Assembly (NCBI RefSeq): GCF_004022265.1
Contig: NZ_SAVB01000015.1
Coordinates: forward strand, 1 to 64,000
Source of the DNA: Paenirhodobacter ferrireducens
Lineage (GTDB): Bacteria > Pseudomonadota > Alphaproteobacteria > Rhodobacterales > Rhodobacteraceae
Reading direction: 5' to 3'
DNA: 64,000 nt
Part shown: in pieces, positions 52,886-56,579 of the stretch
Layout of the letters: each line of letters begins with the position of its first letter
How positions within the stretch are numbered: position 1 is the stretch's first letter
The notes under the pieces: model-generated
Database searches by the model: none
What the model saw: only the letters and a program-made list of their open reading frames with translations
What the model was told of the DNA's origin: nothing
Position numbers and translations under genes: made by a program

Positions 52886-52911
52886 CATCGGTCCTTCCGG
52901 TGGGCTGTGCA

Positions 52912-52940
52912 TTGATCGCAGGGCGGGACGCTACTATCAA
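52912..52940 (+). promoter_or_regulatory. Candidate regB promoter in the senC-regB divergent region
   Basis: TTGATC (52912-52917) and TATCAA (52935-52940) are 17 bases apart. On the other strand TTGTCA (52964-52959) and TTGATA (52940-52935) give an overlapping candidate for senC with an 18-base spacer. Both share 52935-52940. In R. capsulatus RegA is known to act on this divergent region. Confidence 0.35.
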
Positions 52941-53001
52941 GGTTCGCGACGGAAAATGTGACAACAGGACCCATGAAATACGGGTCCGGATCGGAGCGGA
53001 G

Positions 53002-54387
53002 ATGGCGGAACGGCCCGAACCCGGACTGCGCCTGGCCGAAAGCCATCAGGACTGGGTCCGGCTGCGCACGCTGATCTTCCTGCGCTGGACCGCGATTGCC
53101 GGGCAGCTCGGCGCGCTGCTCGTCGCCTGCTACTGGTTCGACATCGCGCTCGATCTGCCGCTGTGCCTGGCCACGATCGGCGCCGCGGTCGCGGCAAACC
53201 TGGTGGCGATCCGGCTCTTTCCGGAAAGCCGGCGGCTGAGCCAGGCCGAGGTGACAGCGACGCTGCTCTTCGACACCGCGCAGCTCGCGCTGCTGCTCGC
53301 CCTCACCGGCGGGCTGAACAACCCTTTCGCGCTGCTGATCCTGGTGCCTGCCACGATCGCCGCCACCGCGCTCGAGCTGCGCCCGACGCTGCTGCTGGGC
53401 ACCGCGACGATCGCGATGATCTCCTGCGTCGCGCTCTTCAACCTGCCGCTGACCACGAAGGAGGGCGTCGAGCTGGCGATGCCGCCGATGATCGAATTCG
53501 GCACCTGGGTCGCGATCGTGGTCGGGGTGATCTTCCTCGGCGGCTATGCCCACCGCATCGCCGGCGAGATCCATTCGATGGGCGACGCGCTGCTGGCCAC
53601 TCAGCTCGCGCTGGCCCGCGAGCAGAAGCTGACCGACCTTGGCGGCGTGGTGGCAGCGGCGGCGCATGAGCTCGGCACGCCGCTCGCGACGATCAAGCTG
53701 GTCTCCTCGGAGCTTGCCGACGAGCTCGACGACCGGCCCGAGCTTTACGAGGACGCGCTGCTGATCCGCGAGCAGGCCGACCGCTGCCGCGACATCCTGC
53801 GCTCGATGGGCCGCGCCGGAAAGGACGACCTGCACCTGCGCTCGGCGCCGCTGCTGGCCGTACTGCGCGAGGCGGCCGAGCCGCATCTCGACCGCGGCAA
53901 GGAGATCCGCTTCGAGGCCGCCCCCGCCCCCGGCGGCTCGGACCGGCAGCCGTCGATCTATCGCTATCCCGAACTCATCCACGCGCTGCGCAACCTGGTG
54001 CAGAATGCCGTCGACTTCGCGCAAAGCACGGTCTGGGTCGATGCCGAATGGACCGGCCAGCAGATCACCGTGCGCATCACCGACGACGGCCGCGGCTATG
54101 CGCCCGGCGTGCTCGGCCGGATCGGCGACCCGTTCCTGCACAGCCGCCCGACCGAGCGCAGCGCCCGCCCGGAATACGAGGGCATGGGCCTTGGTCTGTT
54201 CATCGCCAAGACCCTGCTCGAGCGCACCGGCGCCAGCTTGCGATTCGCCAATGGCGCCGAACCGGTGGCCGCAGAAGGCGCCGCCCCGCGCCGCTCGGGC
54301 GCCGTGGTCGAGGTGCGCTGGCCCGCGGCGCGGCTGCTTGCCCCCGAAACCGGCCCTCTGGGCGAAAATATCCCGATCACGCCCTGA
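53002..54387 (+). CDS. regB: Redox sensor histidine kinase RegB/PrrB
   Basis: The 461-residue kinase has six membrane helices and the quinone-binding heptapeptide GGLNNPF (103-109). The H box AAAHELGTPLATIK carries phospho-His H222, and C262 in ADRCRDILRSMG is the redox cysteine. N, G1 and G2 boxes are present (NLVQNAVDFA, DDGRGYAPG, GMGLGLFIAK). ATG 53002 (MAERPEPGLR) follows GGAGCGGAG; the open frame upstream is not conserved. All known signalling residues are intact. Confidence 0.97.
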   Translation: MAERPEPGLRLAESHQDWVRLRTLIFLRWTAIAGQLGALLVACYWFDIALDLPLCLATIGAAVAANLVAIRLFPESRRLSQAEVTATLLFDTAQLALLLALTGGLNNPFALLILVPATIAATALELRPTLLLGTATIAMISCVALFNLPLTTKEGVELAMPPMIEFGTWVAIVVGVIFLGGYAHRIAGEIHSMGDALLATQLALAREQKLTDLGGVVAAAAHELGTPLATIKLVSSELADELDDRPELYEDALLIREQADRCRDILRSMGRAGKDDLHLRSAPLLAVLREAAEPHLDRGKEIRFEAAPAPGGSDRQPSIYRYPELIHALRNLVQNAVDFAQSTVWVDAEWTGQQITVRITDDGRGYAPGVLGRIGDPFLHSRPTERSARPEYEGMGLGLFIAKTLLERTGASLRFANGAEPVAAEGAAPRRSGAVVEVRWPAARLLAPETGPLGENIPITP

Positions 54388-54414: not shown

Positions 54415-54439
54415 CTCAACTTAACGTTGAGTTAACCAT
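54415..54439 (+). promoter_or_regulatory. CtrA-binding box upstream of the PAS/DivL-like gene
   Basis: TTAA (54421-54424), seven bases, then TTAACCAT (54432-54439) match the full CtrA consensus TTAA-N7-TTAAC. The left part also forms CTCAAC-TTAAC-GTTGAG, an overlapping inverted repeat. It lies 40 bases before the PAS-protein start and 27 after regB. In DNA this GC-rich a chance match is unlikely. Confidence 0.65.
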
Positions 54440-54478
54440 CTTCCCCGAGGATCGAGCAAAGGGTGAAAGGATGCGGTG

Positions 54479-56041
54479 ATGCAAGGCGGTTGGCTCGAGG
54501 CCCTGATCATCGTGACCACGTCGATCGGCGCCGCACTCCTTGCGCTGATGCTGCTTTCCTATCTTGCGCCGCGCCGCCCGTCGGCCCGGCCAAGCGCCGC
54601 CGCGCACCCGGTGCTGGAACCCACGGTGTTCCTGTTCGACGACCGCCACCTCGTCGATGCCACCGGCCCGGCCCGCAGCCTTCTCGCCGCGACCCCGACC
54701 AGCGGCAACGACTGGGACCGGCTGTGCGCCTTCCTTGCGCCGCGGTTCGAGGGCTTCGCCCGTGCCATGGGCTCGCTTGCCGAACAGGGCCGTCTCGAAC
54801 TGATCTCGGTGCCCGAGGCGGACCCGCGCCCACCGCTGCACCTGCTGGCCGAGCACATCGGCGGGCTCGCCCGCATCACCCTGATCGACCCGGCGGCCGA
54901 GGGCCGTGGCGTGCTGGTCGACGGGCTGTCGCAACGCGCGCTCGAGGACGAGCTTGCATTGCTGCGTCAGGCCTTCGACTCGCTGCCGGCGCCGGTCTGG
55001 CGCGAGGATGGGCAAGGCGCCGTATGCTGGGCGAACCGGGCCTATCTGCTGCTGTCGGACGCCTTCGGCGACGGCGAGGACTGTCTCGTCTGGCCGCTGC
55101 CGCGACTGTTCCCGCACGAGGCGGCGCCACCGACCACGCCGCGCCGGCTGCGCATTGCCCGCGCGGCCGGCGCGCTCTGGTTCGACTGCCACAGTTTCGT
55201 GCTGACCGACGGCGCGCTGCATTACGCCCAGCCCGCCGATGCCACGATACGCGCCGAGACCGCGCTGCGCGACTTCGTGCAGACCCTGACGAAGACCTTC
55301 GCCGGCCTGCCGATCGGGCTCGCGATCTTCGACCGCGAACGCCGGCTGCAGCTGTTCAACCCGGCGCTGATCGACCTGACCCAGCTCAGCCCCGATTTCC
55401 TCTCGGCGCGGCCCACGCTCTATGCCCTGCTCGACCGGCTGCGCGAGTCGCGGATGATGCCCGAACCGAAGGACTATCGCAGCTGGCGGCTGCAGATGAC
55501 CGCGCTGGAAAAAGCTGCCGCGGCGGGCTTTCACACCGAGACCTGGAACCTGCCCGGCGGCCAGACCTATCGCGTCACCGGCCGCCCTCACCCCGATGGC
55601 GCCGTCGCCTTCCTGGTCGAGGATATCTCGGCCGAGGTCTCGCTCACACGCCGCTTCCGCGCCGAGCTCGAACTGAGCCAGGAGGTGCTCGACCTGATGC
55701 CCGAGGCCGTCGCGGTGTTCCGGGCCTCGGGCGAGCTTGCGCTGTCGAACCGCGCCTATGACGCACTGTGGCAGGTCGAGCCCGGCACCACGCTCGGCCG
55801 CGTCACCATCCTCGATGCGACCCGGCGCTGGCAGGAAATCTGCGGCGCCAGCATGCTCTGGCCGCAGGCCCGCGCCTTCTGCCTGCGCTCAGCGGAACGC
55901 CTGACGATCGAGGGGGAGGTGCCCCTGCCCGACGGCACCCCGCTGCGCTGCCGCTTCGTGCCGATCCAGGGCGGGGCGATGCTGGCCGGCTTCACCCCCG
56001 CCGCGGTGCCCCTCAGCGCTCTGCCGCAGTCCTCGGGCTGA
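54479..56041 (+). CDS. Membrane PAS-domain protein, DivL-like but without kinase domains
   Basis: The 520-residue protein has one N-terminal membrane helix (ALIIVTTSIGAALLALMLLS) and three PAS-like modules (near FDSLPAPVWREDGQGAVCWA, GLPIGLAIFDRERRLQLFNP and LDLMPEAVAVFRASGELALS). It ends without HisKA or HATPase motifs. In Caulobacter, divL is followed by tsaE; here tsaE follows 40 bases later, and a CtrA box precedes the gene, so it is probably the positional counterpart of DivL. ATG 54479 follows AAAGG; a GTG one codon earlier is possible. DivL orthology is inference. Confidence 0.7.
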   Translation: MQGGWLEALIIVTTSIGAALLALMLLSYLAPRRPSARPSAAAHPVLEPTVFLFDDRHLVDATGPARSLLAATPTSGNDWDRLCAFLAPRFEGFARAMGSLAEQGRLELISVPEADPRPPLHLLAEHIGGLARITLIDPAAEGRGVLVDGLSQRALEDELALLRQAFDSLPAPVWREDGQGAVCWANRAYLLLSDAFGDGEDCLVWPLPRLFPHEAAPPTTPRRLRIARAAGALWFDCHSFVLTDGALHYAQPADATIRAETALRDFVQTLTKTFAGLPIGLAIFDRERRLQLFNPALIDLTQLSPDFLSARPTLYALLDRLRESRMMPEPKDYRSWRLQMTALEKAAAAGFHTETWNLPGGQTYRVTGRPHPDGAVAFLVEDISAEVSLTRRFRAELELSQEVLDLMPEAVAVFRASGELALSNRAYDALWQVEPGTTLGRVTILDATRRWQEICGASMLWPQARAFCLRSAERLTIEGEVPLPDGTPLRCRFVPIQGGAMLAGFTPAAVPLSALPQSSG

Positions 56042-56081: not shown

Positions 56082-56579
56082 ATGCCGACCGAGACGCCCC
56101 CCCTCTTCACGCTTGACCTGCCCGATGCCGAGGCCACCGCCCGGCTGGGCGAAACCCTGGCCCCGCTGCTGCGCGCGGGCGACGTGCTGCTGCTCGAGGG
56201 GCAGATCGGCGCCGGCAAGACGCATTTCGCCCGCGCCCTGATCTCGGCCCGGCTCGCGGCCCTTGGCCGGCACGAGGACATCCCCTCGCCGACCTTCACC
56301 CTGGTGCAAAGCTACGACGCCGCGCCCGAGATCTGGCACGCCGACCTCTACCGGCTGACCCACCCCGACGAGGCGATCGAGCTCGGCCTCGACGAGGCCT
56401 TCGAGACCGCGATCTGCCTCGTCGAATGGCCCGACCGGCTCGGCGATCTGACCCCCCCGGGTGCGCTCACCCTGCGCTTTTCGCTGCGCGCGGGCGGCGC
56501 GGCGCGCGCGGTCGAAATCTCGGGCGATGCCGCCTGGCGTGCCCGCCTGCAGCCCTTGGAAAGCTGGCCCGATGCCTGA
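56082..56579 (+). CDS. tsaE: tRNA threonylcarbamoyladenosine biosynthesis ATPase TsaE
   Basis: TsaE works with TsaB/TsaD to make t6A37 in tRNA. The 165-residue protein has Walker A GQIGAGKTHFARAL, PSPTFTLVQSYD and the Walker B-like IWHADLYRL, then CLVEWPDRLGD. It overlaps amgK by eight bases. Confidence 0.95.
   Translation: MPTETPPLFTLDLPDAEATARLGETLAPLLRAGDVLLLEGQIGAGKTHFARALISARLAALGRHEDIPSPTFTLVQSYDAAPEIWHADLYRLTHPDEAIELGLDEAFETAICLVEWPDRLGDLTPPGALTLRFSLRAGGAARAVEISGDAAWRARLQPLESWPDA

Follow-up and report, generated by a model that had tools for sequence, protein, structure and literature searches.

A pseudokinase-less DivL behind a conserved candidate CtrA site in Paenirhodobacter ferrireducens

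A tyrosine in the H-box, Tyr550, has been described as the hallmark of DivL (PMC4211667). For Rhodobacterales, passages of Vega-Baray 2022 (PMC9430884) present DivL as a regulatory PAS domain only, with a truncation point marked within Rhodobacterales in a figure legend, and the relevant part of Brilli 2010 (PMC2877005) predicts control of divL by CtrA. In R. capsulatus, DivL is reported to be tied to CckA and CtrA and to raise the kinase activity of CckA, while CckA and ChpT are reported to phosphorylate CtrA (sections of PMC9143464 and PMC9638019). According to the excerpted expression data, divL transcripts of R. capsulatus were significantly decreased in ctrA knockouts and only mildly increased on ctrA overexpression (Fogg 2019, PMC6363796), and divL1 of P. 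inhibens was repressed in ctrA and cckA mutants (PMC12363192).

Layout of the locus and domain content of its PAS protein

The locus described here lies in a 64,000-nt stretch of DNA from P. ferrireducens, referred to as the window. In this locus, regA and senC (minus strand) are followed by regB, a candidate CtrA site (hereafter the box), divL and tsaE, with the following features:

52900..54387, plus strand: regB, redox sensor kinase and upstream neighbour (NF045988, 706.6 bits, cut-off 570)
54421..54436, plus strand: predicted CtrA-type full site TTAACGTTGAGTTAAC (TTAA-N7-TTAAC), 16 bases, zero mismatches
54479..56041, plus strand: short divL (open reading frame 54479-56038, stop to 56041), assigned by Pfam PAS_7 and PAS_8, AlphaFold2, Foldseek and DivL orthology
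56082..56579, plus strand: tsaE, 40 nt 3' of divL (TIGR00150, 93.9 bits, cut-off 60.1; PF02367)

The box is contained in TTAACGTTGAGTTAACCAT (54421-54439) and lies 33 nt past the regB stop. An initial annotation of this DNA had proposed a full CtrA site 40 bases ahead of a gene for a membrane PAS protein lacking the DHp and ATPase domains, and the site is indeed present without mismatch, the actual gap of 42 nt between the box end and the divL ATG at 54479 being close to the proposed one. A motif scan of the whole window returned this site as the single perfect match to TTAA-N7-TTAAC. With up to one mismatch, three matches were obtained against a shuffle mean of 0.23, with 1 of 100 shuffles reaching three, although these three matches represent two distinct places, one match being the opposite strand of the 54421-54436 site. 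Neither sigma-70-like hexamers nor a consensus -35/-10 pair were found at the divL locus. As divL is preceded by a conserved box of its own, located past the regB stop, it appears to be a unit separate from regB.

The divL product comprises 520 amino acids with one membrane helix at residues 3-29 of the AlphaFold2 model and a hydropathy peak at residues 8-26. The model predicts four PAS-like modules (about residues 49-136, 173-252, 279-382 and 410-507) joined by helices (linkers at 149, 255 and 384). The chain ends directly past the fourth module, at 520. Mean pLDDT was 81.5 and pTM 0.36, and because of the latter value the domain arrangement is unsure. Pfam matches were confined to PAS families (PAS_7 and PAS_8), HisKA and HATPase gave no match up to E 1, and a profile of the kinase half of long DivL proteins did not match the window protein. 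The pseudokinase half, with its Tyr in place of the phospho-His, is thus absent, as the initial annotation had held, and the protein was therefore filed as a short-form DivL, an ortholog rather than a pseudokinase. Top Foldseek matches of the model were multi-PAS proteins including PpsR and FixL, at low TM-scores of 0.16-0.31 on the query, a sequence search of the PDB gave one weak PAS match (BvgS, E 0.00063), and no cofactor-binding residue was identified in the protein.

Orthology to long DivL and the series of forms within the family

To relate the PAS protein to DivL of other families, profile searches were carried out across the class. A profile (A1) that combined 15 short rows with 5 longer ones, searched in 142 class genomes at E <=1e-15, found a match in 87, with 85 of these lying outside the Rhodobacteraceae (140 non-family genomes searched), and none in the other 55. 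A profile built from short forms only (A2; 29 rows) and run on 38 non-family genomes, chosen from the 85 already matched by A1, had its best match at the same place as A1 in all 38, in open frames of 646 to 994 aa, while the next match to another gene was 1.3e-11 or worse. The exception was genome G064, where a second DivL-like frame of 569 aa matched at 1.2e-55; this frame (contig 13, L123), which occurs outside the family besides a long Tyr-DivL (L113), has no detected H-box and is possibly an independent kinase-less DivL. The H-box residue, read by eye in 40 class loci, was Tyr in 33, Phe in one and His in one, with no motif in five including L108. These 40 loci comprise 39 outside the family and L108 inside it, and stand near the top of the 89 A1 places, with the window's own place left out and G197 passed over.

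The agreement in place between A2 and A1, the H-box Tyr in class loci, long forms at the same locus within the family and the tree described below support orthology of the PAS protein to long DivL on the level of sequence comparison, in line with the DivL-like identity initially suggested. That its PAS modules might be unrelated to those of DivL is contradicted by the profile, same-locus and tree results. An unrelated multi-PAS protein that happens to sit near tsaE can accordingly be given almost no weight: PAS domains are common and Pfam returns generic PAS families only, yet the best matches are long DivL frames of other families, and both the same-locus long forms and the tree speak against a chance neighbour. 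A separate full-length DivL, which would also have argued against the initial annotation, was looked for in the genome and not found, as A1 has one match at E <=1e-15.

Further genome matches to the window protein were a NahK-like hybrid kinase (3.8e-5) and a place on contig C49 (0.046). Since a D. shibae PAS-kinase-receiver protein has been called DivL (PMC6473078) and two divL paralogs have been reported in several Rhodobacterales (PMC8116508), we also weighed a 744-aa protein on contig C25 (L072:4691-6925), the closest of the genome's remaining PAS proteins, as a DivL paralog. This candidate was rejected and read as a NahK-type hybrid kinase, as it possesses a receiver domain and a His residue in its H-box (ASHDLLQPL), and the published naming of the D. 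shibae protein may be a misnaming. On the same contig (L072 2689-6925), a response-regulator frame, a FIST-like frame and the 744-aa PAS-kinase-receiver frame stand in a row. The neighbour of the 744-aa frame is presumably a FIST-type protein, and we take the frames of this row to resemble a NosP-NahK pair.

Within the family, a divL match was obtained in 56 of 61 genomes (G014, G029, G033, G036 and G059 gave none), and the ortholog of a second species of the same genus (G046) is 89% identical. Four of the 56 loci (G004, G054, G017 and G008) hold long forms with a HisKA match and no HATPase_c match up to E 0.1, their H-box residues being His, Gln, Tyr and Thr as judged by eye from the alignment. 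A kinase-half profile made from 31 long DivL proteins matched the four with E-values from 7.8e-50 to 7.9e-42, and no E-value below 0.1 was obtained for any of the remaining 52 family proteins. Two proteins are intermediate in length, namely those of G001 (L064; 716 aa, with a 210-aa tail past the last PAS) and G015 (L062; 661 aa, with a 160-aa tail). A search for kinase remnants in these tails gave no significant match (best E 0.13), and the tails are possible eroded remnants of the pseudokinase half. The remaining 50 are short forms, which end past the last PAS and just ahead of the DHp helix in the alignment, with a median tail after the last PAS column of 21 aa (54 rows measured). At one locus (G009, L057), divL is split over two reading frames of 346 and 286 aa, for which a frameshift or an assembly error is possible.

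The PAS part of 70 rows was used for a quick maximum-likelihood tree, in which 54 out of 56 family loci are represented together with 16 class loci out of 40; L057 and L071 were left out for broken or contig-edge frames, six class loci by choice and 18 for size. On this tree, in which 34 out of 67 inner branches are open, a branch with an SH-aLRT of 98 separates 48 short and 2 intermediate rows from 4 long family rows and 16 outside rows. One change is needed if the intermediates count as short, and two for the short rows alone. The kinase part was probably lost in a single event near the base of the family, and a single loss on the tree agrees with the truncation point in the figure legend of Vega-Baray 2022 (PMC9430884).

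Conservation of the candidate CtrA site and of the neighbouring genes

Site frequency provides no evidence for the box, because the counts across the whole genome (4.07 Mb) barely differ from those of the control or fall below them: five perfect sites were found against four for the pattern read backwards, and 48 sites with up to one mismatch against 79, so that genome-wide enrichment, tried as support, was not seen against the backward control. Its place in orthologs, in contrast, is what lifts the predicted site at 54421-54436 above chance. Of 136 loci, 90 have a perfect box close to the junction of regB and divL and 126 a box with up to one mismatch (54,110 bases scanned), against three perfect sites on both strands in the 877,329 bases that make up the rest of the same loci. 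These 136 are not independent cases, as they consist of 56 family and 80 named loci with overlapping species (one record appears as both L015 and L156), the named ones being the best 80 of 523 and hence biased to close kin. The stretch counted started 100 nt before the regB stop and misses perfect sites in L046 and L058, which may be among the three background matches. From the box end, the first in-frame start codon follows after 40-59 nt in 54 of the 90 perfect-box loci, and the sister species (L015) has a box with one mismatch, TTAACGTGTAATTCAC.

Sorted by form, the box of the family sample is perfect in 34 of 50 short forms (45 with up to one mismatch) and in one of two intermediates (G001, with one mismatch in G015), but in none of the four long forms, among which G004 has a site with one mismatch near the same spot. 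Of the 39 loci from other families, one (L118) shows a perfect site no farther than about 400 nt from the start of the divL frame.

The five perfect sites of the genome precede divL, ctrA, a cckA-like gene, a motB-like gene and a small open frame, at about 40-60 nt before the judged starts. For the cckA-like gene, the start was judged to lie later because the site falls inside the longest possible frame, and the motB-like gene reaches 175 bits, below its cut-off of 277; the two frames behind it are presumably flagellar. The small open frame (L076 4927-5310, contig 60) encodes a lipoprotein-like product of 107 aa without an NCBIfam match. Sites with one mismatch were also observed at two other places. 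One of them, TCAACACTCGCTTAAC at 33320-33335 of the window (minus strand), lies between divergent open frames that we take to be fliI-like (31953-33275, minus) and flgB-like (33357-33743, plus), with a flgC-like frame presumably behind the latter; the other lies next to chpT (L107, contig 7), between chpT and a divergent frame assumed to be acyltransferase-like.

Under the rule applied to neighbouring genes, tsaE comes after divL at 49 of 56 family loci and at 52 of the 80 named ones. Outside the family, where the stretches read at the 39 class loci were of limited length and in part truncated at contig ends, 17 loci had a nearby tsaE on the same strand (a weak one in L146), and in 7 it lay no more than about 400 nt away. 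The initial view of the tsaE-adjacent position as the divL locus thus holds in part. The gene regB precedes divL in 128 of 136 loci. At the 39 class loci from other families, no RegB was observed next to divL, and the weak matches of a RegB profile (41 bits at most) were to DivL's own frame and to one opposite-strand frame.

This adjacency bears on a reading in which the protein is DivL by descent only and serves as a stand-alone PAS sensor of the RegB-RegA redox system, the CtrA box coupling motility and division state to redox sensing. Parts of PMC7232146 report for R. capsulatus that loss of RegA lowers transcripts of the CtrA regulon and suggest FnrL binding beside divL from ChIP-seq and in silico sites, and PpsR and FixL are among the top folds, although any multi-PAS protein might give such matches at these TM-scores. 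As divL, with a conserved box of its own past the regB stop, seems to form a separate unit, as no residue for cofactor binding was identified, and as the R. capsulatus reports, as excerpted, link DivL to CckA and CtrA (PMC9143464; PMC9638019), we consider this redox reading improbable.

Proposed CtrA feedback and comparison with known systems

The genome encodes CtrA (NF045991, 433 bits, cut-off 350), a ChpT that scores above the cut-off of PF10090 and, with 97 bits, below the NCBIfam cut-off of 225, and a protein whose best NCBIfam name is CckA at 522 bits, below the cut-off of 1000. The short-form DivL thus sits in a genome with CckA-ChpT-CtrA, CckA being assigned by best name only. Out of 44 receiver domains in the genome, three short ones were scanned (L094, L097 and L101), and no DivK-named model was among the 25 best listed.

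With high confidence, we favour a model in which this short-form Rhodobacteraceae divL, devoid of the pseudokinase half, is activated by CtrA~P and its product raises CckA activity in a positive loop. Close to the base of the family, an ancestral DivL would have been shortened by its pseudokinase half (DHp and CA) to a membrane-anchored protein of four PAS modules. Judging from the conserved site, CtrA~P would bind the box 42 nt upstream and increase divL transcription, and the PAS-only DivL, by analogy to what is reported for R. capsulatus, would raise the kinase activity of CckA. Phosphate would then flow along CckA-ChpT-CtrA, and CtrA~P would yield more DivL, closing the loop. With the DivK-docking half gone, DivL could not act as a DivK~P sensor as in Caulobacter, and its PAS modules may be free for another input.

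The activation step has expression support, as divL falls in the R. capsulatus and P. inhibens mutants. The opposite sign, in which CtrA represses divL at the box and creates a negative feedback, draws on the position of the box, which lies only 42 nt from the start with no consensus -35/-10 pair, so that position alone leaves the sign undecided. Repression nevertheless appears highly unlikely given the decrease of divL in R. capsulatus ctrA knockouts (PMC6363796) and of divL1 in P. inhibens ctrA and cckA mutants (PMC12363192), both as given in the excerpts cited, and given that the CtrA-activated osp of R. sphaeroides is described with a site at a similar spacing, 54 bp before the start (a passage of PMC9430884).

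Beyond the positive loop, it is conceivable, if rather doubtful, that the DivK-docking half was lost and the CtrA box gained jointly at the root of the family, once divL was already located behind regB. A switch gated by DivK~P would thereby have become a PAS amplifier of CckA that is induced by CtrA and gated by a ligand or by redox state. A joint loss and gain is compatible with the observation that the intermediates have boxes (perfect and with one mismatch) and that none of the four long forms has a perfect one.

The idea of a feedback on CtrA, already raised in the initial annotation, has published support and hence is not new, and a kinase-less DivL under CtrA control is a correct rediscovery of what has already been published. 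What goes beyond the passages cited is the regB adjacency, not met in the consulted parts of the literature on DivL, regB and CtrA, together with the form-by-form box counts over 136 loci. One more genus is herewith confirmed to have a sensor-only DivL behind a conserved CtrA site, and the presence of long, intermediate and short forms at a single conserved locus offers a natural series for how a pseudokinase half is discarded while the PAS half still works.

The closest known counterpart is DivL of R. capsulatus (rcc00042, 'PAS domain protein DivL'), which shares 65% identity with the window DivL (best segment residues 1-510) and for which differences were observed at the sequence level only. 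The corresponding locus of R. capsulatus SP108 (L150), equated with rcc00042 by organism, identity and neighbourhood as no rcc tag was seen, likewise has regB upstream, a distance of 21 nt between the regB stop and the box (TTAACGGCACATTAAC), and a tsaE frame directly behind divL. By InterPro count, the R. capsulatus protein has one PAS domain (PMC6473078), whereas four modules are modelled in the window protein. MopJ of Caulobacter is likewise reported to be PAS-only and to act on CtrA, but has a single PAS instead of four modules. DivL of C. crescentus resembles the window protein in having tandem PAS modules behind a membrane helix. According to the construct description in PMC4211667, its three-, two- and one-PAS constructs begin at 152, 281 and 411 and its DHp at 526, close to the linker positions 149, 255 and 384 and to the C-terminus (residue 520) of the window protein. 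In contrast to the window DivL, the C. crescentus protein keeps the Tyr550 pseudokinase half that binds DivK~P. The short Rhodobacterales DivL of Brilli 2010 (PMC2877005) and Vega-Baray 2022 (PMC9430884), as far as described in the passages cited, lacks the kinase domain as the window protein does, and the latter is no different from it in kind.
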